Below, in pieces: positions 45,023 through 54,721 of a DNA stretch of 64,000 nucleotides. How positions within the stretch are numbered: the first letter of the stretch is position 1; the number at the start of each line of letters is the position of its first letter. The position numbers and the translations under genes are program-made. This DNA comes from Edaphobacter paludis (lineage in GTDB: Bacteria; Acidobacteriota; Terriglobia; Terriglobales; Acidobacteriaceae), in contig NZ_CP121194.1 of assembly GCF_039993895.1 (NCBI RefSeq), positions 3,658,001 through 3,722,000 of the forward strand. The letters run 5' to 3'. The notes under the pieces are model-generated. The model saw only the letters and a program-made list of their open reading frames with translations. It had not been told where the DNA came from and did no database searches.

Positions 45023-45052
45023 GCCTCCTGTCAGCGTGCGCTGATAGGAGGC
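45023..45052. terminator. bidirectional hairpin between PHP and PI-PLC-like genes
   Basis: A 13-bp stem with one G-U pair (45023-45035 with 45040-45052) and a GTGC loop lies six bases past the PHP gene stop. It overlaps the last codons of the PI-PLC-like gene. Confidence 0.6.
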
Positions 45053-46185
45053 GCCAACAATTTATCCACGCAGCCAGCAGGTTTTGTCACGGGGTTGCAT
45101 CTCGCTACAAGGCCATTGGGAAGCTCAACAACATACTTCGTCCACCGCGAAGGCTCCGACGCCGGATAGTCCGTGCTGATCATCTGCGCGCCACTTGAAA
45201 GCGCAAGATCGCGTCTCGTCGTATCATCCGTGCGCGCCTGATCCGTGCTCTCATCCGAACGCGTCCGCACAAGATAGCCCTGCTTCACGAGCGCATCAAT
45301 CTCTGCAAGAGAACCGTCATTTTCTTCCGTGAACGCCGCATCGGGAGCGCCCGGCTCAGCATTCGTAAAGAGCACTCGCCCACGCAGCGATGGATGCCCT
45401 TCGGTATAGATAGGTTCCACATGTCTCTGGTCCATCAGAAAGATGACCTTGCCGCGAGCCTCGGCCAGAGTTGGCCATTTGCCTGCGTGCACAGCTTCTA
45501 CCAGAGTTGCCGAATTGCCCCGCACATCATCCGGCGTAATCATCTCCTTCGGCTTGAAGACCGATCGGATCTCCTTATCCAGGGCATCGAACACAGGCGC
45601 AGTAAATGGCTCCGGAGTCGTTGACGTTGGAAGCTCAGGCTTTCCTTCTTTCGTCTCAATCAAAATAAAAATTGGAAGATGCTGAGGATGTTGCTTCGAC
45701 CAGCTACGAACATCAGTAAGGCAGGCAATCAGCGTCATACAGGTGCTGCGCACATCGATATCCTGCACGTGCAGCACCTTGAATCCGGGCTTGTCCATCA
45801 CATGATGAGGATCGAACTCCGGGTCCGCCGGCAATCCCGCCTTTGCCACCATGTTCAGAATTGCCGGATGCGCGTAGCGGCCTCCCTTGGTATCGGCGTA
45901 TACGTCGATCTCTATCTGCCGCACCCCGCCCGATAGTTGATCGGCCAGCGGAGCATGCTGATAGTCGAGGCCGTGTAGTCCCTTGGGATTCTTCATCTCC
46001 ATCAGCTTTCTTGCGCTCGGCGGAAAGCCCGCGTGATAGCTGTTATGCGAACCAATCACCTGAATCTCATTCACGTGGACTCGCTGGTCCTGCTGGGCTG
46101 CCGTCATTTGCTGTGCCAACGCTGATCCACCCATGGCGAAAAGCGCCAAGGCTAAGGAGATTCCGGTTACCTTACTGATGGTCAT
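45031..46185 (-). CDS. exported calcium-dependent phosphoinositide phospholipase C-like protein
   Basis: This protein of about 384 residues (ATG at 46185; an in-frame ATG six codons earlier is less likely) starts with a signal peptide (VTGISLALALFAMGGSALAQ). It has the phosphodiesterase signature of the PI-PLC superfamily: VNEIQVIGSHNSYHAGFP with the catalytic His, LSGGVRQIEIDVYAD, the second His region FKVLHVQDIDV, LPIFILIETKEG and KVIFLMDQRHVEPIY. The pattern fits the Ca2+-dependent PLC1-like group of secreted bacterial enzymes. It should cleave inositol phospholipid or glycosylphosphoinositide outside the cytoplasm. Together with the downstream inositol genes, this makes an inositol substrate plausible. 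Confidence 0.82.
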   Translation of the reverse strand: MTISKVTGISLALALFAMGGSALAQQMTAAQQDQRVHVNEIQVIGSHNSYHAGFPPSARKLMEMKNPKGLHGLDYQHAPLADQLSGGVRQIEIDVYADTKGGRYAHPAILNMVAKAGLPADPEFDPHHVMDKPGFKVLHVQDIDVRSTCMTLIACLTDVRSWSKQHPQHLPIFILIETKEGKPELPTSTTPEPFTAPVFDALDKEIRSVFKPKEMITPDDVRGNSATLVEAVHAGKWPTLAEARGKVIFLMDQRHVEPIYTEGHPSLRGRVLFTNAEPGAPDAAFTEENDGSLAEIDALVKQGYLVRTRSDESTDQARTDDTTRRDLALSSGAQMISTDYPASEPSRWTKYVVELPNGLVARCNPVTKPAGCVDKLLAPPISAR

Positions 46186-46259
46186 AATTGTCCCGTGTTC
46201 CAATCTGAATTTTATTGTTCAACGAGCCCAGCCTATCGCTGAGGCGGATTGAAACAACC

Positions 46260-46293
46260 ACACGGCGCTGATCGAGAGGACTCAGCGCCGTGT
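46260..46293 (-). terminator. strong hairpin after the TonB-dependent receptor gene
   Basis: ACACGGCGCTGA (46260-46271) and TCAGCGCCGTGT (46282-46293) form a perfect 12-bp stem with a 10-base loop. A further CAAC/GTTG pairs outside one mismatch. It lies 42 bases past the minus-strand receptor stop. No long T-run follows. Confidence 0.6.
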
Positions 46294-46334
46294 AGTTGCC
46301 GTACTTGGGTAACTTCGACGCGTCTTGAGCTCCA

Positions 46335-49300
46335 CTAAAAGATAATCTTAGCGGCTAACTGTAGCTGACGCGCAGGAAAGGCAGACGTGATGGAACCATA
46401 GGTCGAATTACTGACATTCCCGTCCGGCGCCTGGTAGTTGACCTTGTTGAGAACGTTGAACGCCTCAGCACGGAAGTCAAAGGTTGAACCCTCTCTCCAG
46501 AGCGGAAACGCTTTATGCAGGCCGAGGTCCGCCTGATAGAAAGCCGGCGACATCACCATATTGCGTTGCGCATTGCCGAAAGGATTACCCGTAGTAGGAA
46601 CATAAGCGCCAGCAACTCCCGGCCCGGTCGACTTCAACAGGTAGCCCGTAAGAGCGGTCTTTGTCTTCGTACGATTCGATGATGGAGCTACCGGATTTCC
46701 GATCACATTCGGCCTATATGTATAAAGATCGGTCACATTCGTGCCAGTTGATGTGCTGTTGGAGTAATTGAGATTCGTCGGAAGACCACTGGTCATGCTG
46801 TTGATAAGAGTTACCTGCCACCCACCCAGCAGGGCGTCCATCAAATACGAGGAACTGCCCCCGAAGTGACGGCCGCGTCCATACGGCAGATCGTAGATGA
46901 CGGCAGTGGTGTTATTCAGCGGCTGGTCATAGTTCGACCGGCCATAATCGCTGCTTGGATTGGCAAAGTTCACACGCGAGTTATCGCCGTTGCTCGTCTC
47001 CAGGTGCCCGGCGGACAAGTCAAAGGTGCGACCCCACGTAAAGGAGTTCAGAAGATACAAACCATTGCCGTAGCGCTTCTCGACCTTGAACTGCAACGCG
47101 TTGTAGTTCGAGGTTCCCCCGCCGTACGCAATCTCGATATCGCCAAAGGTTGAGACAGGACGCCGAGACGCCAGGGAAGCTTTGCAGTTCGTCGCCAATG
47201 CTTGAGTGCATATTGATGCCTGGTTGTAGTCTGCAAGAATCTGAAGATGTCTGCCTGCGTTGCCGACATATGCCACATCCATTACAACTTGGCCAGGAAG
47301 CTGATGCTGTATCGAAAGATGGTAGCTCTGCACATATCCGGTCTTGGTGTTCTTCGGTATGTAGCGCGACGTCACCAACGCCGGATTGAATGCAGAAGGA
47401 GCAGTCAGGTTGACCGAATAGCCTTGCTGCGTCTGCCGGAAGCATTTCGTCTGGTCCTGCGTGTCATTCTGGCAGAGCGTTGTCGGGCTCGGCGCAAAGT
47501 TGTTGATCGTTGCGTTCACAACATTAGGACCATTGTAAGTGAGGTTGTTCTCTCCGCCCGCGCGATTGAACTGCGTATAGCTGATTCCATAGCCTGAACG
47601 AATGACCGTATTCGGTGTCGCACTATAGGAGAGTCCGAAACGCGGCCCAACGTTAGTTAACGGCATGTTGACGAGAGCACGGTTGTAAATCGAACCGTCC
47701 TTTGCCTGAATCAACGATTTGGTCGTCGGATCGAAGTTAGCCAGCTTGTTGTGCGCTTCATACTGCGGGGTCGCCAGTTCGTAACGCACGCCCGCGTTGA
47801 TCGTCAGGTTCGGCATCAGCTTGATGTCGTCCTGAAAGTACATGAAGTTCATCCGCTGACGCACAGAGGCGATAAAGAAGTTAGTAAGTGAATAAGAGCT
47901 GCGGTTCCCTAATAGAAAGTCCGCGAGGTTGTGCGCTTCCTGTAGTTGGCCAAAGGCGTCCGCTGGAGTGTTTGGAGCAGTGGAATACTGTCCAGCGTAA
48001 TTATCCTGTCCATAGCTCGGGTTGTAGTCATTGATCTGTGTGTTGATCGCCTGGTACTCATAGCCGAGCTTCATCGATTGCTTGCCGTGGACCAGCGTGT
48101 AGTTCACCTTCGGGTTCAGAACAGAAGGGTTCTGGAACTGAGGACTCGCCGACTGGGTTCCGAACTGCGAGAACCCTGTAACGCTCTGCGCATTCAGGCT
48201 GCGCACGATAATAGGATCGGTCGGAATTCCATCCGTGATTCCATTCGCCGTCAGCAGGCTTGGGTTGCCAAGGCCATAGGGCGACTTACCGCCTTCGTTG
48301 TGGCCGATGCCAATGCGGAAATCCAATAGCGACGCCGGTGTAACCACCCATGTCGTACCAAGAGCAATCTGGCGATTGTAGAGATGGACATTGGCATTTG
48401 CATTGCCACCAGCTGCTCCGCCAAACGTCGGCGGATCGAAGATGGCCGTCTGATGCTGGCTGTATACGCCAAAGATACTGAGTTTCTGGTTAAAGGTATG
48501 GTCGATACGAATATCGCCCTTGTCATCATTAATGGTGCCGCGAGGAAATGCAGAGAAGTTATTGGCATACGCCGCGGCAGTATTCAGCGTAGCCCCATTG
48601 TTTGCCTGCGGCAGCGCCGCCATCACAGCCCGCGCGAATGGCGTCTGATCTGCCGTAGGAATAACTCCGTCGGCATAGACCTTTCCAGTAATCGGATTCT
48701 GCAAAGGAATAGGTGAGGTCGAACCGTTGGCATTGTGCAGCAGGAAGGTGCCAACGCGCTGCTCCGTCGTCGGCAAGGTCGCAGTTCCGTACGAGAGCGC
48801 AATTTGACGAACGCCTTCATAGTCCATAAAGAAGAACGTGTGGTCGCGCCAGATTGGGCCTCCGAAGGTGCCACCAAATTGATTGCGGATGAAGCTGGGC
48901 TTCACTCCCGAGGCAGGCGCGAACGGCCCAATGGCATTGAATACAGTATTGCGGTTATAGTCCCAGGCGCGCCCATGAAACTGATTCGTTCCGCGGCGAA
49001 TACTTGCGTTAATCACCGCACCGGATGCCCGACCATACTCCGCGCTGTAGTTGTCCGTCTCCAGCCGAAACTCCGAGACCGCATCCGGCGATGGAGGAAT
49101 ATTTTCGTTCGCAAATCCCTGGTTCGACGTCCCGTAAGAGTTGTTGTCCAAACCATCCAGCAGGAAGTTGTTGAACGCGCTTCGCTGCCCATTCACGTTG
49201 AACGATGCTTCGCGGCTTGTCGTGGACTGGTTCTCCAGAAACGACTTCCGCACACCCGGAGCAAGCAGCGCAAGATCGGCATACGACCGGCCGTTGAGTG

Positions 49301-49796
49301 GTAGATTCTCAATCTCCCGCGTGCCGACGACCTGACCGCGAGAACTCGTCTCCGTCTCCAGCACCGACGGTGCGGCCGATACCGTCACCGCCTCCGTCAC
49401 CGATCCCGGCTTCAATGCAACATCGACGCGCTGACGAGAGGCCGTCGTCAGAGTAAAAGGCTCCGTCTCCGACCGCTGGAAGCCAGTAGCTTCCGTAGCG
49501 ACGCGATAACGTCCGATGGGCACACTCGAAAATTCATAGCGGCCATCTGCATCCGTCGTCGCCGTCTGCTTGATGCTCGTCGCAACATTGGTAAGCGTCA
49601 CCGTGCTGTTGGGGATTGCAGCGTTCGTCGTGTCCCTGACATAACCCAGCACCGAGGCCGACTCGAACTGCCCGTAGCATTGAAGCGCCGGCAGAAGCAG
49701 CAGAATCGCCAGCACCAAACGCAGCCATGCGAATCCGGGACCAGCAATCAAGGCCTCTGAATGAGCGGCTTTTCCCGCTTGTATGTTTTGCATCAT
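46335..49796 (-). CDS. Oar-like TonB-dependent receptor with carboxypeptidase-regulatory domain
   Basis: This 1153-residue outer-membrane protein has a signal sequence (LVLAILLLLPALQCYGQ). Next is a carboxypeptidase-regulatory-like beta domain (ASVLGYVRDTTNAAIPNSTVTLTN). The plug domain starts VGTREIENLPLNGRSYADLA and has the long-receptor segment NVNGQRSAFNNFLLDGLDNNSYG. A large Oar-type barrel follows. Such receptors are abundant in Acidobacteriota and are thought to import large or glycosylated substrates. It starts at the ATG at 49796 with AGGGG nine bases upstream. Its promoter TTGACA (49921-49926) and TAGTGT (49897-49902) is well spaced (18 bp). Confidence 0.95.
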   Translation of the reverse strand: MMQNIQAGKAAHSEALIAGPGFAWLRLVLAILLLLPALQCYGQFESASVLGYVRDTTNAAIPNSTVTLTNVATSIKQTATTDADGRYEFSSVPIGRYRVATEATGFQRSETEPFTLTTASRQRVDVALKPGSVTEAVTVSAAPSVLETETSSRGQVVGTREIENLPLNGRSYADLALLAPGVRKSFLENQSTTSREASFNVNGQRSAFNNFLLDGLDNNSYGTSNQGFANENIPPSPDAVSEFRLETDNYSAEYGRASGAVINASIRRGTNQFHGRAWDYNRNTVFNAIGPFAPASGVKPSFIRNQFGGTFGGPIWRDHTFFFMDYEGVRQIALSYGTATLPTTEQRVGTFLLHNANGSTSPIPLQNPITGKVYADGVIPTADQTPFARAVMAALPQANNGATLNTAAAYANNFSAFPRGTINDDKGDIRIDHTFNQKLSIFGVYSQHQTAIFDPPTFGGAAGGNANANVHLYNRQIALGTTWVVTPASLLDFRIGIGHNEGGKSPYGLGNPSLLTANGITDGIPTDPIIVRSLNAQSVTGFSQFGTQSASPQFQNPSVLNPKVNYTLVHGKQSMKLGYEYQAINTQINDYNPSYGQDNYAGQYSTAPNTPADAFGQLQEAHNLADFLLGNRSSYSLTNFFIASVRQRMNFMYFQDDIKLMPNLTINAGVRYELATPQYEAHNKLANFDPTTKSLIQAKDGSIYNRALVNMPLTNVGPRFGLSYSATPNTVIRSGYGISYTQFNRAGGENNLTYNGPNVVNATINNFAPSPTTLCQNDTQDQTKCFRQTQQGYSVNLTAPSAFNPALVTSRYIPKNTKTGYVQSYHLSIQHQLPGQVVMDVAYVGNAGRHLQILADYNQASICTQALATNCKASLASRRPVSTFGDIEIAYGGGTSNYNALQFKVEKRYGNGLYLLNSFTWGRTFDLSAGHLETSNGDNSRVNFANPSSDYGRSNYDQPLNNTTAVIYDLPYGRGRHFGGSSSYLMDALLGGWQVTLINSMTSGLPTNLNYSNSTSTGTNVTDLYTYRPNVIGNPVAPSSNRTKTKTALTGYLLKSTGPGVAGAYVPTTGNPFGNAQRNMVMSPAFYQADLGLHKAFPLWREGSTFDFRAEAFNVLNKVNYQAPDGNVSNSTYGSITSAFPARQLQLAAKIIF

Positions 49797-50191
49797 CTGA
49801 ACTGTCCCCTCGAAAAATTGAACTTCACTTGATACAGCGCGGCGGCATCATCCGCATTTGCGCTTCACAACTCTGCTGTATGTACGGACGCAAAGAACAC
49901 TACGCATCCCCAAGTGTGCCTGTCAATCAAAAAGTCGCTAACGGCACCGCTAACGTAAATTACCCTATGCATAGTGCATGACGCTGTATGCAAAGGGTTT
50001 ACATAAATTGAACTCCAATATTTAGCGAAAACGGAAACGACCAGAAAAACAGGACCACGAAAGGCACAGCATCATCATGCTGTCCTTCTATGAATTCAAG
50101 GTAAACAACCAGTGACGCCCCCATAAACATCGGCGGCCGTTAGCTCTGGGGCCATCTCAAACCAGCCTGAACGTGACTAGGACAGCACTGC
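49797..50191. other. promoter region of the TonB-dependent receptor and gap before iolB stop
   Basis: These 395 bases hold no gene. On the minus strand a TTGACA/TAGTGT promoter (49897-49926) drives the receptor, with a directly repeated LacI-like box upstream. A palindrome CTATGCATAG (49965-49974) follows. I see no coding bias in the rest, up to the iolB-like stop at 50192. Confidence 0.65.
49936..49955. promoter_or_regulatory. LacI-type operator candidate before the receptor
   Basis: CGCTAACG occurs twice in tandem (49936-49943 and 49948-49955), 12 bases apart, and includes ACCGCTAAC (49946-49954). The same nine-base core is at the MIOX promoter (51970-51978). The site is upstream of the -35 element, so it may act as an activator or looping site rather than a direct block. 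Confidence 0.5.
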
Positions 50192-50959
50192 TTAAGCGAA
50201 TCGAGCGTCGACCGTCACCACGCCCCACTGGCGATCCACCACCTCGCGATGCGCAGCCATAATCCACACAAAATTCAGCGTACTACCCGGAATCGCCACA
50301 TTCGGATGATAGCCTTCGGGCAACAACACCGCGTCGCCATCGCGCACCACCTCCACGTCGGCCGCCGTGATCCCGTCCGTATAAACCAGTTGCAGACCAA
50401 ATGCAGGCTCCGGCATATCAAAGAAGACATAGATCTCTTCGAGCATCGCCGCATGCTCATGCGGAGGCCAGCTCGTCCAGTTGCCCGGCAGAGAACTCGT
50501 TACCCCCACCACCAGCCGCCCCGCCTTTACATTGGTCCCCAGCATAATATTGATCTCACGCTTCGAACTCTCGTTGCCCGCAACGAAGTGCAGCTTCTCA
50601 TCTGCCCGCACGCTAGCATATGGGACGAACTGCACAGGATACTCCCCGTCCACCCCGGCAGAGCACTCCACCAGATCAACCTCCCCCGAAGTCTCAACCG
50701 TAACCGGCAGCCCCTTCGAAACATACAGCGAGTCTTTAGCCTGCAGCGCAAACCGCTCCTCCCCTACCGTGACCGTTGCCATACCACTCAGGCAGACCAG
50801 TCCCGTCTCCTGCCCCTCATTGGTAAAGCTCACACGCCGCAACTCTGCACCGAGCCGAATCCGACCATAGCTCATCTCACGCATCGAACTATTGCCCGGA
50901 TGAATGAAGATATTCCGCCCCTGCAACTCCGCTGTACCGCGGATTAAACGCTTCGACAT
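50192..50959 (-). CDS. iolB: IolB-like 5-deoxy-glucuronate isomerase
   Basis: This 255-residue double-cupin protein matches the IolB family. It has the IFIHPG start motif, ETGLVCLSGMATVTVGEERF, the metal-binding cupin region SWPPHEHAAMLEEIYVFF and the closing DGDAVLLPEGYHPNVAIPGS. In classic inositol catabolism IolB converts 5-deoxy-glucuronate to the 2-ketogluconate form. Here it is beside an inositol oxygenase that makes D-glucuronate, and no iolG, iolE or iolD is present. A role as a uronate isomerase is a reasonable inference. It begins after a terminator that follows MIOX. Confidence 0.88.
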   Translation of the reverse strand: MSKRLIRGTAELQGRNIFIHPGNSSMREMSYGRIRLGAELRRVSFTNEGQETGLVCLSGMATVTVGEERFALQAKDSLYVSKGLPVTVETSGEVDLVECSAGVDGEYPVQFVPYASVRADEKLHFVAGNESSKREINIMLGTNVKAGRLVVGVTSSLPGNWTSWPPHEHAAMLEEIYVFFDMPEPAFGLQLVYTDGITAADVEVVRDGDAVLLPEGYHPNVAIPGSTLNFVWIMAAHREVVDRQWGVVTVDARFA

Positions 50960-50997
50960 TTGCCTCTCCCTGTCCGGCTTTCGCCTCGTATCAGATC

Positions 50998-51038
50998 AAA
51001 AAAAATAGCCCCGAAAAAGCTCTCGCAATCTCGGGGCT
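50998..51038 (-). terminator. terminator between MIOX and iolB
   Basis: On the minus strand AGCCCCGA (complement of 51031-51038) pairs with TCGGGGCT (complement of 51007-51014) across a 16-base loop, followed by A then eight T residues. It lies 31 bases past the MIOX stop. Confidence 0.85.
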
Positions 51039-51068
51039 GCTCAGTGGAAACTCTTGGAAGGCCGTCCG

Positions 51069-51929
51069 CTACCAGGCAATCTTCGCCGGAAAGAACTCGG
51101 CAAACAGATCGTCGTAGTAGGGCTTCAGCTCCTTCAAATTTGGCTTCGTATGTCCCTTCGAGTACAGGTCATATACGTTGAACTTGTTCACCCACTCCAG
51201 CATCTCGACATCGTGATCGCTCATCAGGTGCCGGTAAGCTCCATGCCGGTGCGCCGAGTAGAACGAGTGATATCGCAGCATGTACAGCGACTCTTCCGGC
51301 ATGTAATTCTTCATCACCTCACCGATATAGCCGTCATGTCCAAACGACATGTGCACCTTGCTCAGCCCACAGTTCGGCTCGTAGATGCCGTACTTCGTCT
51401 GGTACAGCGGATTGTTGATATCGGGATTCGCCTTGAAGTACTGCGGAAAAACGATCTGGTCGGAGTAAGCGCAACCGACGGGGAACGTATCACCTACTAC
51501 GCCCCACTGAGGCTCGCCCCACAGGCATAGCACCTTGCCCAGGTCGTGAATAAACCCGGTCAACACAAACCATCGCGGATGCCCGTCCTTGCGGATCGCC
51601 TCCGAGGTCTGCAACAGATGTTCAATCTGGGTCAGGTCCGTATCCGGATCGCTGTCATCGACCAGCGTGTTGAGAAACTCGGCCGCCTCCCAGATGCTCT
51701 TCTCGCCCTTGTCGAGGCCAAAGTATTGCTTCTCCTTCGCCATCACGTAGTCGTAGGTCTGGTACTGGTGGTTCAGGCGATAAAACTCTGCGACCCCGGG
51801 AGTCGCCTCTTCGTCATACTGCCGGAACTGCTCCTGGCTCTTGCCTTCCTGGTAGCGTCCAGTCAAAAACTCATCCCACTCATCCATGTCCTTCAGTGGG
51901 GCATCTGTCGAAGTTACTGTCGTTGCCAT
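51069..51929 (-). CDS. myo-inositol oxygenase (MIOX)
   Basis: This protein of 286 residues (ATG at 51929 chosen for GGAGAAATTCCG upstream; the frame runs to 51959) oxidatively cleaves myo-inositol to D-glucuronate. All six diiron ligands of the mammalian enzyme are visible by motif: the first His in [12 protein letters not shown], His-Asp in GFIHDLGKV, His in SFGHDGYIG, His in [10 protein letters not shown] and Asp in [10 protein letters not shown]. It also keeps PNCGLSKV and [15 protein letters not shown] is best known in eukaryotes and is sparse in bacteria. It has a promoter with LacI-like operator and shares a locus with IolB, a LacI regulator and a sugar permease. Confidence 0.95.
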
Positions 51930-51966
51930 CGGAATTTCTCCTTCGGCGCGAAAATTCACGGCTCGC

Positions 51967-51978
51967 GTTACCGCTAAC
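51967..51978. promoter_or_regulatory. LacI-type operator at the MIOX promoter
   Basis: GTTACCGCTAAC is a near-perfect palindrome with a central CG, as in many LacI operators. It lies directly downstream of a -10 (TAGTAT, spaced 18 bp from TTGCCA on the minus strand), the usual place for a repressor. Confidence 0.6.
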
Positions 51979-52024
51979 TATACTAGACCTTGAAATGCCA
52001 CCATGGCAAGTGACATACTTCGCC

Positions 52025-53047
52025 CTATTTCACAGCGGCAGCGCCGACCGTCGACTGCCGCACCACCAAAGTCGATTCCAGCAGAACACTGCGCGGCGGT
52101 TGCTCCGGGTTCGAACATAGATCGAGGGCAAACTCTCCCGCGATCCGTCCCAGTTCCGCCGTCCCATGGTCGATCGAGCTCAGCGGGACCCGCAGATAAT
52201 CCGCATAGCGGAGGTTTCCGCAGCCGATAAAGGCAATATCCTCGGGCACCCTCAGGCCCGCCCGCAGGGTCGCTTCCATCGCGCCAATGGCCGTCAAGTC
52301 GTTGTAGCAGAACACCGCATCAGGCCGCGGATCCAGCCGCAGCAACTCCTGCATCGCCTGAAACCCTGCGGCATCTCCCGCCTCTTCAACGCGTTCCCGT
52401 ACCAGCACATAACTCTCCGGTACGGCCAGGCCATGTTCCGCCATGACACCCCGGTAACCACGTAAGCGATCAAAGGACGGGCTGGTGTTCTTCCCGCCGA
52501 TATGGGCAATCCGCTTTCGGCCAATCTCGATCAAATGCCGAGTGGCCATCTCGCCAACTTTCACATCGTCCGTTCCCACAAAATGCGCCGCCAGATGGGG
52601 AAAGTTCCGATCAAAGAGCAAATAGGGGGTCCGCACATCGCCCAGCTCATAGAAGTTGCGCAGGCTCGCCTGGCACGAAGCAATCAGCAGAACATCGATC
52701 CCCCGGCTCAGCAACGTTCGGATCTCCTGCTGCTCTACCTCGGGGTCTTCCTCCGACGAAGCCAGAATCAGCGCGCGCTTACTCGTCCGCAGTACTCCGC
52801 TCAGCGATTTGGCAAACTCGGCAAAAAATGGATGCACCAGGTCCGGCACTACCAACCCCACCGTGTAAGTGCGTCCGCTGGCCAGCCCGCGCGCCATCAT
52901 GTTGGGCTGATAGTTCAACTCCTTCATTCGCTTCAGCACCCGCCGCCGCGTCTCTTCTCCTATATCGGTATTGCCCCGCAACACCTTCGACACAGTTACG
53001 ACAGACACACCAAGATCACGCGCAATATCTTTCAGTCTTACAGCCAT
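52025..53047 (-). CDS. LacI-family transcriptional regulator
   Basis: This 340-residue regulator has the DNA-binding start VRLKDIARDLGVSVVTVSKV and hinge helix YQPNMMARGLASGRTYTVGL. A periplasmic-binding-protein-like effector domain follows, with LFDRNFPHLAAHFVGTDDVK and HIGGKNTSPSFDRLRGYRGV. It lies between the MIOX and permease genes. Its likely operators are the palindromes at 51967 and 54710, and possibly 49936. The inducer cannot be told by eye, although inositol or glucuronate would fit the neighbours. Confidence 0.93.
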   Translation of the reverse strand: MAVRLKDIARDLGVSVVTVSKVLRGNTDIGEETRRRVLKRMKELNYQPNMMARGLASGRTYTVGLVVPDLVHPFFAEFAKSLSGVLRTSKRALILASSEEDPEVEQQEIRTLLSRGIDVLLIASCQASLRNFYELGDVRTPYLLFDRNFPHLAAHFVGTDDVKVGEMATRHLIEIGRKRIAHIGGKNTSPSFDRLRGYRGVMAEHGLAVPESYVLVRERVEEAGDAAGFQAMQELLRLDPRPDAVFCYNDLTAIGAMEATLRAGLRVPEDIAFIGCGNLRYADYLRVPLSSIDHGTAELGRIAGEFALDLCSNPEQPPRSVLLESTLVVRQSTVGAAAVK

Positions 53048-53169
53048 GTCCGCTCCTCAAACTACCCGCATCTGAAGCATACCCAAACTCAATCATCTCC
53101 GTTGCCTCTGCCTTTGCTGTCATCCTTCTGCGAAGCGAGCGGACCTGCCATTCCGTTGCCTGGTGCAAA

Positions 53170-54423
53170 CTACGAGAACCGTGTCCGCCGCCACAAACTC
53201 CAGGTCCCCGCCACCAGACTCAGCAGCAAAACTCCACCCAGCGCAGCAATCCAGCGAACATTCATCGCCAGCGGAGGAACCACCGCCCGCACTCCAAGCC
53301 AGATGAACACTCCCGTAGCGGCAGCAATAATCGCGTAGTCCCACCACCGCCGCCGTTCGTTTCGCGTGCCAAACTCATCGCCGGCCATCGCCATCAACGT
53401 GCGGTTGTAATCGAGCCCATATCGCTCACACTCCCGCAGCACCGCCTCATTGGTCGAGGTCTGCTCCTTCGATGACGCCACCGCCGTACTGATCGCCAAC
53501 GCTCCCAGAATCATCACTACCGACCCCGTCACCACCAGCAGCTTATGGCGATGGTCCGCCGCCGCCAGTTCACCAAACACCAGCGCGCCCCACGCCAGTC
53601 CCCAGAGCTGATTCGTATTCGAGAGCGGAATTCCCCGCCCAATCCCGACGTACTTCGTAGCAAACTGCTGAAACAAATCGCCGATCACCCATACGAACCC
53701 GCCGAGAAACAGCCAGAACACCATTCCTCTCAGGTGGAACAACTGAAACGAAGGCGAATGCAGACCGCCATCCAGCGCCAGCGTCAGCGCAAACACCGTA
53801 CTCAGCTCGCCCACCGTAAAGGCCGTAACAAACGACAGCGGGTTCATACCGCTCAAGTAAGCCTTCCGGTATGGAACATACATCGTCCCCCACATCAAAC
53901 TCGCCCCAGCCGCCGCCAGTATGCCGCCCACGGCATGGTGGGTCGTGGCCGTCCCTCCGTGCAGCGTACTGAAACCCAGCATCACCGCCGCAGACACAAT
54001 GGCCACCGTTCCCAATACCACCTTGCCAATGTTCTTTGCGCTGGCCCCTTCCAGCTCACGGAATAGCAGCCGTCCCCACAGAAGTCCAATCAGTGAATTC
54101 GTATTCCAAAGCGGAAACGCCACCGCCAGTCCGACGTCGCGAATCGCAAACACCGTCAGCGTATTCGCCACCGCCCAAAGCGCCCCCGCCAGCAGTGCCC
54201 ACACAATTAAATGCTTCTTATCAAAAAGATCAGCGAAGACATAGCTCGTGCCCTTCAGCAGCGTCGGAAAGGTCCACCGCGCCGTAAACACTCCCGCCAC
54301 CATGCACAACGAAATCGCAAACGGAGAGAAACCCGCGTTCACCAGCTTCGTTGGTGCCTCTGCGGCCCCCAGCCAGACGCCCGCTGTCAGCCCGCAAACC
54401 ACGCCCAGGCGATGCAGCGACAT
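53170..54423 (-). CDS. GRP/RhaT-like sugar permease with C-terminal extension
   Basis: This protein of about 417 residues (ATG at 54423; the frame runs to TTG at 54486) has ten TM segments in the DMT/GRP pattern. It begins LGVVCGLTAGVWLGAAEAPTK, then LNxFAIxDVGLAVAFPLW-type TM pairs, with SNTNQLWGLAWGALVFGELA near the end of the fold. It ends with two more hydrophobic segments (YAIIAAATGVFIWLGVRAV, then IAALGGVLLLSLVAGTW) after a charged linker, which normal 340-residue RhaT lacks. It probably imports the sugar or polyol of this locus. Its promoter and operator lie upstream of the 34-residue peptide gene. Confidence 0.85.
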   Translation of the reverse strand: MSLHRLGVVCGLTAGVWLGAAEAPTKLVNAGFSPFAISLCMVAGVFTARWTFPTLLKGTSYVFADLFDKKHLIVWALLAGALWAVANTLTVFAIRDVGLAVAFPLWNTNSLIGLLWGRLLFRELEGASAKNIGKVVLGTVAIVSAAVMLGFSTLHGGTATTHHAVGGILAAAGASLMWGTMYVPYRKAYLSGMNPLSFVTAFTVGELSTVFALTLALDGGLHSPSFQLFHLRGMVFWLFLGGFVWVIGDLFQQFATKYVGIGRGIPLSNTNQLWGLAWGALVFGELAAADHRHKLLVVTGSVVMILGALAISTAVASSKEQTSTNEAVLRECERYGLDYNRTLMAMAGDEFGTRNERRRWWDYAIIAAATGVFIWLGVRAVVPPLAMNVRWIAALGGVLLLSLVAGTWSLWRRTRFS

Positions 54424-54484
54424 CCCCTCTTTCTGCCGATTGGTAACCGCGCTTCCCACAATTTTCTCCACGCTCGAAACGAGC

Positions 54485-54498
54485 AATTCTTAAGAATT
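54485..54498. repeat. 14-bp perfect palindrome
   Basis: AATTCTTAAGAATT overlaps the stop codon of the 34-residue peptide gene, just before the permease gene. It could be a small-hairpin, attenuator or dimeric-regulator site. Confidence 0.5.
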
Positions 54499-54601
54499 AG
54501 TGCAAGGCGACCAGAAGGGCAATCCCCGCGATCAGCACAAAAAACGGCACCAGAAAATGACTGTCTGTGACAATCGTCCTCACGCCACGCAGAAAATCCA
54601 T
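54497..54601 (-). CDS. 34-residue single-TM small membrane protein
   Basis: On the minus strand an ATG at 54601 with GGGAGG seven bases upstream opens a frame that ends at TAA at 54497-54499. The peptide starts MDFLRGVRTIVTDSHFLVPF and continues with a hydrophobic stretch of about 20 residues (FLVPFFVLIAGIALLVALH). It lies between the LacI-operator promoter and the permease gene, in the same direction. Small TM peptides next to permeases can stabilise or tune the transporter, but no function is shown. No similar known family is recognised. Confidence 0.6.
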   Translation of the reverse strand: MDFLRGVRTIVTDSHFLVPFFVLIAGIALLVALH

Positions 54602-54709
54602 CTCAACCTCCCGAAAGCTTCCCTTACGCACAACCGCACATCATCTCGACCGAACTCTGAGCGCAGTTGAAGAGACCCCTGCATTGTCTACCGTGTAATG
54701 GCTGCCCTA

Positions 54710-54721
54710 GTAAGCGGTTAC
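54710..54721. promoter_or_regulatory. LacI-type operator at the permease promoter
   Basis: GTAAGCGGTTAC is a near-perfect palindrome with a central CG. It lies just downstream of TTGACA (54755-54760, complement) and TACGGT (54731-54736, complement) with 18-bp spacing on the minus strand, the same place as in the MIOX promoter. Confidence 0.6.

Follow-up and report, generated by a model that had tools for sequence, protein, structure and literature searches.

Canonical iol operons (IolG-IolE-IolD-IolB-IolC) encode inositol catabolism together with a local regulator, and the pathway of animals and plants relies on oxidation of inositol to glucuronate by myo-inositol oxygenase (MIOX). Here we analyzed a stretch of 64,000 nucleotides from Edaphobacter paludis (contig NZ_CP121194.1, positions 3658001-3722000 of a 4.04 Mb genome; hereafter the window), which carries a MIOX locus of seven genes on one (minus) strand. 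According to profile searches and locus comparison, and in the order of transcription, these genes encode a membrane micropeptide, a permease, a LacI-family regulator, MIOX, a cupin, a TonB-dependent receptor (TBDR) and a phosphatidylinositol (PI)-specific phospholipase C (PI-PLC, or PLC). We consider it likely that they belong to a regulon under LacI control by which inositol phospholipids are used as food; the operon seems to form its core, and glpK-glpD apparently lies within the same wider LacI regulon.

The locus resembles canonical iol operons in its presumed inositol catabolism and local regulator, and two such operons of the family also carry the permease and micropeptide; it differs in that MIOX oxidation to glucuronate would take the place of IolG, IolE and IolD. 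Its MIOX belongs to the same enzyme family as that of animals and plants and keeps the metal ligands, although here it is found in a bacterial repressor-controlled locus from which glucuronate would probably pass to UxaC-type catabolism. The PLC is by sequence of the same family as the Ca2+-dependent bacterial PI-PLCs (3H4W, 5FYO), yet it is tied to MIOX, a TBDR and GH92, and is fused to GH92 in two relatives. As in polysaccharide utilization loci, a TBDR, exported hydrolases and a sugar regulator come together under one operator, whereas the substrate class here would be an inositol lipid; no SusD-family gene was found among the nine minus-strand proteins scanned between 45031 and 58888. The cupin shares its fold and metal-site region with the KduI/IolB isomerases, but falls below the curated cut-offs of both and belongs to a subfamily linked to uronate operons and, here, to MIOX.

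In the open-access literature that we searched, nothing joined MIOX with Acidobacteria, and among the matches listed for inositol oxygenase no title concerned a bacterial MIOX. Nothing joined phosphatidylinositol mannosides (PIM) with GH92, and the matches listed for glycosylphosphatidylinositol (GPI), alpha-mannosidase, PI-PLC and GH92 concerned fungi by title; no glycosyl inositol phosphorylceramide (GIPC) term occurred among the bacterial catabolism or utilization-locus matches listed. The one match on PI, TBDR, inositol, PLC and Acidobacteria, at four of these five terms, concerned Aeromonas, and nothing joined a small membrane protein, an inositol transporter and an operon. As far as these searches reach, a locus of this kind has not been published. 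Marques is said to have surveyed MIOX homologs by sequence in 2020.

A putative LacI operator and gene order

We compared 83 loci, comprising the MIOX loci of named genomes up to L065, further fetched loci and the window, minus three duplicates; proteins were clustered at 38% identity and MIOX was assigned in 82 of the 83. The permease cluster occurs in 43 loci, LacI in 28, TBDR in 18 (antisense and divergent in one, L038), PLC in 14, GlpK and GlpD in seven each and the cupin in five, followed by a metallophosphatase and an HGSNAT-like protein (four each), two GH92 clusters (four and three) and GH89 (three). The first-pass annotation, made from the window's letters alone, had placed PI-PLC, TBDR, MIOX, LacI, permease and a membrane micropeptide together on one strand at this position, which our analysis corroborates. 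It had also named conserved gene order in other Acidobacteriota as a check, and the order permease-LacI-MIOX-TBDR-PLC does recur within the genus of the window and among its close kin, though with gaps. Among named genomes, the closest MIOX relatives come from Acidobacteriaceae, for example Granulicella and Edaphobacter.

The regulator has LacI-family domains, and many promoters of the compared loci share a palindromic, putative operator, which we searched for as GTWASCGSTWAC with dinucleotide shuffles as controls (0 exact, 3-13% within two mismatches). The operator is exact at 31 of 34 MIOX promoters (GTTAGCGGTAAC in the window) and at 15 of 30 permease promoters, 25 of which have it within two mismatches. 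At TBDR promoters it is exact in 2/19, within one mismatch in 9/19 and within two in 17/19 (shuffles within two: 9%). Exact sites were also found at 1/7 GlpK, 2/9 GH92 and 1/4 GH89 promoters; those of GH89 (L039) and GH92 (L044, L129) coincide with the site of a divergent permease promoter and were therefore rejected as independent support. No exact site precedes LacI itself (0/27) or the metallophosphatase (0/6).

The operator follows its presumed regulator across 107 MIOX promoters, taken from the family and from beyond it. Where a LacI ortholog of at least 64% identity lies in the same stretch, 26 of 27 promoters have an exact site and the remaining one has a single mismatch; exact sites are found in 0/2 with an ortholog of 63% and in 7/78 with none found in the stretch. 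Among those seven, the LacI of L101 is located elsewhere in its genome (L161) and that of L034 is cut by the contig end.

Scanning 14 whole genomes yielded 61 sites, 24 of them at promoters: 14 of MIOX, eight of the permease, one of an unlinked TBDR-phosphatase-PLC module (genome G445) and one of a glpK near MIOX (G442). In the window's own genome, a 25th site, GTTACCGGTAAC, directly precedes the unlinked glpK-glpD, and the remaining four sites comprise three before other TBDRs and one inside a called gene. The operator is also present at an unlinked permease-LacI pair of the relative G289. Overall, glpK promoters carry it exactly in 2/27 and within one mismatch in 5/27 (the window's genome, G437, G049, G289 and G442).

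Two TBDRs elsewhere in the window's genome are preceded by operator-like sequences. One site, GTTACCGGTAAC at L173:3320 (G000:C1:297319), lies directly before its TBDR; downstream of this TBDR are two large proteins with PIG-L domains (GlcNAc-PI de-N-acetylase family), and the region is possibly a further inositol-glycan locus. The other, GTAACCGGTTAC, lies at L174:17612 (G000:C1:3473611) in a stretch that also has a GH125-like gene (57% identity to the GH125 of L146).

Table 1. Genes and operator sites of the MIOX locus, in window coordinates and in the order of transcription.
Feature	Position	Strand	Basis
Operator GTAAGCGGTTAC (palindrome) before micropeptide and permease	54710..54721		Exact match to pattern GTWASCGSTWAC
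34-aa single-helix membrane micropeptide	54497..54601	-	Conserved in 45 loci; codon-position mismatch pattern
DMT-fold permease (RhaT/GRP/TMEM144-like)	53170..54486	-	Pfam/TIGR matches; AlphaFold2 model and fold match
LacI-family regulator	52025..53047	-	PF00356, 59 bits; PF13377, 122 bits
Operator GTTAGCGGTAAC before MIOX	51967..51978		Exact match to pattern
MIOX, myo-inositol oxygenase	51069..51929	-	PF05153, 346 bits (cut-off 25); alignment to 2HUO
KduI/IolB-family cupin	50192..50959	-	PF04962, 133 bits (cut-off 23.9); fold match; homologs in uronate operons
Degenerate operator GTTAGCGGTGCC before TBDR	49943..49954		Two mismatches to pattern; weak alone
TonB-dependent receptor	46335..49796	-	PF25183, 734 bits
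PI-PLC-C1 family phospholipase C	45031..46203	-	PF16670, 469 bits (cut-off 29.9)

Predicted import, oxidation and uronate route

The permease matches PF06800 (50 bits) and, far below its cut-off of 319.6, the RhaT/GlcU-type sugar-proton symporter model TIGR00776 (48 bits); no solved structure matches it by sequence. A DMT fold is seen in its best AlphaFold2 model (predicted local distance difference test, pLDDT, 78, against 37-72 in the four others; predicted template modelling score, pTM, 0.80), with the choline importer LicB as the top fold match. The micropeptide is found in 45 loci, counting the window and excluding known duplicates, most of which share the core TD-x-[H/Q]-F-x-x-P. Mismatches per codon position (0.36/0.18/0.61 over 990 pairs) point to coding constraint, and the membrane micropeptide proposed in the first-pass annotation is a real gene. 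The gap between its end and the permease is mostly 0-190 bp, but in L113, L114 and L117 it lies 1.1-1.3 kb ahead. Of the 30 permease loci that match best, 28 have it; in L122 it is present and no permease was matched.

Both genes also occur in two canonical iol operons. L182 has the order IolG-IolE-(gene)-IolC-(LacI)-IolD-IolB-micropeptide-permease, and L184 contains IolB, IolD, IolE, IolG, micropeptide and permease. In L182, IolC_N, IolD and IolB score above their cut-offs, as do IolG, IolD and IolB in L184, with both IolE matches and the IolG of L182 (354.8 of 355) below. MIOX or an IolD over cut-off is found in 51 of 63 permease genomes (p 6e-21), the permease still tracks IolD among MIOX-free genomes (p 4e-6), and 4/44 MIOX genomes do not have it. 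The joint presence of permease and micropeptide in two iol operons makes a myo-inositol importer their most likely identity, with the micropeptide a probable small partner of the permease. In another iol operon, the micropeptide follows IolB (L190:9572-9646) with no adjoining permease, and the gene after it, of 354 aa, has no match among the NCBIfam models.

MIOX aligns to the solved enzyme 2HUO with an E-value of 8.5e-74, and all six of the residues that we take to be the diiron ligands are kept, in agreement with the first reading of this gene. Its start is most likely the ATG at 51929 (286 aa), preceded by GAAGGAG, rather than an upstream GTG. MIOX had been called rare in bacteria, a description that does not suit Acidobacteriota: it is present in 38 of 297 sampled genomes of the phylum (37 above the Pfam cut-off) and 44 of 160 of the family, and the 60 MIOX loci in named genomes are mostly from Acidobacteriota, with others in Verrucomicrobiota, Armatimonadota and Hydrogenedentota. 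A gene with a metallo-beta-lactamase fold (PF00753) lies directly before MIOX, ~1 kb ahead of it, in L045, L091, L093 and L101.

The cupin had been annotated as IolB, an assignment that we rejected. It scores 102 bits against the IolB model TIGR04378, half the cut-off of 205 (the IolB of L182 scores 304), and 55.5 bits against the KduI model NF002091 (cut-off 250), and is therefore described here as a KduI/IolB-family cupin and not as a demonstrated IolB. IolB and KduI could not be told apart by a fold search, in which 2QJV and 1XRU matched best. Of the 160 genomes, 21 others have homologs of 49-57% identity, and 17 of these 21 are without MIOX. In four of six such loci that were fetched, a KduD-like short-chain dehydrogenase/reductase (SDR) lies within two genes, and some have a KdgK-like kinase, UxaE, UxaC or GH88; L178 and L179 contain no recognised uronate gene. 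A canonical high-scoring UxaC is present in 17 of 23 cupin genomes (p 8e-13). Together, these uronate loci and the co-occurrence with UxaC render a hexuronate or deoxyuronate isomerase likelier, and the cupin is probably a KduI-like uronate ketol-isomerase. E. coli KduI is reported to ease glucuronate breakdown (PMC3578941).

IolD, the supplier of IolB's substrate, has no match over cut-off anywhere in the window's genome (best 226 bits vs 715). Of the earlier statement that IolG, IolE and IolD are missing, the part on IolD thus extends to the whole genome, and IolG and IolE are absent from the locus, no genome-wide search for them having been made. Uronate genes, suggested previously as a point to check, are present elsewhere in the genome, where a UxaC-family gene (298 bits) is accompanied by UxaE, a PfkB kinase, an SDR and a LarA-like gene. 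UxaC-family matches occur in 42 of the 44 MIOX genomes (missing in G300 and G371). Mutual exclusion of MIOX and IolD was considered and set aside as not significant, with both in 2/160 genomes (44 and 18 singly; p 0.16). The LarA-like gene (PF09861; L145:8007-9287, at ~2.10 Mb of G000:C1) lies between UxaC and UxaE in this uronate operon and perhaps encodes an unusual uronate step.

PI-PLC and glycan enzymes in relatives

The PI-PLC has partial matches to the solved structures 5FYO and 3H4W and is likely exported, judging by a hydrophobic N-terminus ending in ALA-QQ (read by eye). Across 24 genomes there are 36 matches over cut-off, including two partial ones. MIOX is found within 10 kb of 14 of these matches (0.15 expected) and GH92 within 10 kb of eight (0.77 expected), and MIOX is present in 19 of the 24 genomes (p 1e-8). 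The same type of TBDR stands beside PLC both in MIOX loci and in unlinked modules.

Linkage of accessory enzymes was assessed in 26 genomes that carry MIOX. Ten of them have GH89, with 12 matches in all, four of which lie within ~11 kb of MIOX (0.05 expected), and GH92, with 137 matches including fragments, lies less than 10 kb from MIOX in seven genomes (0.56 expected). The accessory genes of relatives that Pfam could name are GH92, an FGGY kinase, a DAO-type GlpD-like protein, a calcineurin-type phosphoesterase, HGSNAT_cat, NAGLU (GH89), a PF01663 phosphodiesterase and GH125; GlpK scores above its NCBIfam cut-off and the GlpD-like protein below its own. L152 combines many of these in the order permease-LacI-MIOX-cupin-TBDR-GH92-phosphodiesterase (antisense)-GH89-HGSNAT. 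GH92 and PI-PLC are encoded in a single open frame at L149:293-3760 (GH92 residues 307-758, PI-PLC 808-1139), and a second such frame, with BLAST matches to both, occurs in a different genome (L153:6961-10344). Modules of the form TBDR-(phosphatase)-PLC-(GH92-GH125) are found apart from MIOX in L146, L157 and L158; the unlinked PLC copies of L154, L155 and L156 adjoin none of the set, save for a distant TBDR-like frame in L155.

The presence of GH92, GH125, GH89, HGSNAT-like enzymes and phosphatases suggests that the food of these relatives is likely a glycosylated inositol phospholipid, such as fungal or plant GIPC, GPI or actinobacterial PIM. The relatives thus point to mannosylated and glucosamine (GlcN)-bearing inositol lipids as food, beyond PI.

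Proposed pathway and alternatives

Genes, linkage, the shared operator, fusions and co-occurrence, as read from sequence, suggest a pathway whose substrates, transport, repression with its effector and isomerase step could be as follows. Outside the cell, the TBDR-linked PI-PLC would cleave off the phosphoinositol head group; the DMT permease and micropeptide would import inositol, and MIOX would oxidize it to D-glucuronate, which UxaC, and probably the KduI-like cupin, would isomerize for entry into the uronate pathway. The lipid's glycerol could be used via GlpK-GlpD, which bear the same operator, and inositol or a close derivative would probably release the LacI repressor. An oxidative route from inositol to glucuronate had already been proposed for this DNA; gene order, the lack of an IolD over cut-off and the uronate genes uphold it and tie it to the secreted PI-PLC and TBDR, while the supposed IolB gives way to a likelier KduI-like isomerase, the operon becomes the core of a wider LacI regulon and relatives suggest a food that goes beyond PI. 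A more specific version is tentative, and we would place it somewhat short of an even chance: a dedicated system, of a kind not described before, for eating glycosyl inositol phospholipids (GIPC, GPI anchors or PIM), with all steps under one inositol-sensing LacI. In such a system, alpha-mannosidases (GH92, GH125) would strip mannose, an HGSNAT-like enzyme would acetylate GlcN and thereby allow its removal by GH89, inositol would be freed by PI-PLC and phosphatases, and a new two-part importer (the DMT permease with its 34-aa subunit) would deliver it to MIOX for conversion to glucuronate.

If the regulon functions in this way, soil Acidobacteria would be able to draw on the carbon of fungal, plant and actinobacterial inositol lipids, and there would be a reason for bacteria to keep an animal-type MIOX. 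The locus would also offer a candidate importer of inositol, and the very small, conserved partner of that permease is a clean test case for the function of membrane micropeptides, and the GH92-PI-PLC fusion is a concrete enzyme candidate for GPI, GIPC and PIM.

The locus could instead be a plain free-inositol operon, with the TBDR and PI-PLC as neighbours that scavenge phosphate or lipid outside the inositol pathway. Linkage of the permease to MIOX is far wider than that of PLC (43 vs 14 of the 83 loci), in many loci neither PLC nor TBDR is found near MIOX, and PLC lies away from MIOX in 22 of 36 cases; we nevertheless regard this as unlikely, given the LacI operator at TBDR promoters, including that of the unlinked module in G445, and the frequency of MIOX among PLC genomes. 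That the permease carries a uronate or other sugar, with the inositol for MIOX coming from elsewhere, we judge quite unlikely. Among named families, RhaT, GlcU and RbsU match it best but score far under their cut-offs, 12 of the 63 permease genomes have neither MIOX nor an IolD over cut-off, and only two of 16 fetched IolD loci contain it; against these stand the association with MIOX or IolD in the other 51, the tracking of IolD where MIOX is missing, and the two canonical iol operons that the permease ends. To our knowledge, the canonical iol route does not run through glucuronate.

Phytate or other inositol phosphates as the main source of inositol, with PI-PLC in a minor role, appear very unlikely. 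Phosphatases (PF00149, PF01663) are found in some loci, and in four the gene with the metallo-beta-lactamase fold stands before MIOX; proteins of this fold are reported to be capable of phytase activity (PMC6584368). We did not adopt this gene as a phytase: its match is to PF00753, and PF12706, to which the published phytases belong, stays under its cut-off (21 of 27 bits). No phytase family was seen among the scanned neighbours, a genome-wide phytase search not having been made, and the linkage of PLC, GH92 and GlpK better suits lipids.

Several observations weigh against a regulon for inositol phospholipids, which we still prefer. No exact operator precedes PLC itself (0/21) or the cupin (0/5), although transcription from the TBDR promoter would account for a PLC without an operator of its own; the window's TBDR site is itself two mismatches off the pattern, and most glpK promoters have no operator even within one mismatch. 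The 61 sites in 14 genomes are no genome-wide excess, since the reversed pattern gives 103, and the argument consequently rests on where the sites lie. Co-occurrence of the cupin with MIOX is not beyond chance (six genomes with both, p 1.0). GH92, GH125 and GH89 are missing from the window's own locus, and GH89 is found nowhere in its genome. Many MIOX loci of other genera have, of the whole set, only permease and MIOX, or MIOX alone, with no PLC and TBDR nearby. Counts are inflated by kinship, many loci coming from one genus group, and the linkage p values, which assume independent genomes and a mean genome of 4.9 Mb, therefore overstate certainty. Among the compared loci, those on the contigs of L034 and L065, labelled Planctomycetaceae and Rhodanobacteraceae, are 89-90% identical to the MIOX locus of the window, and these contigs are probably mis-binned Acidobacteriaceae.

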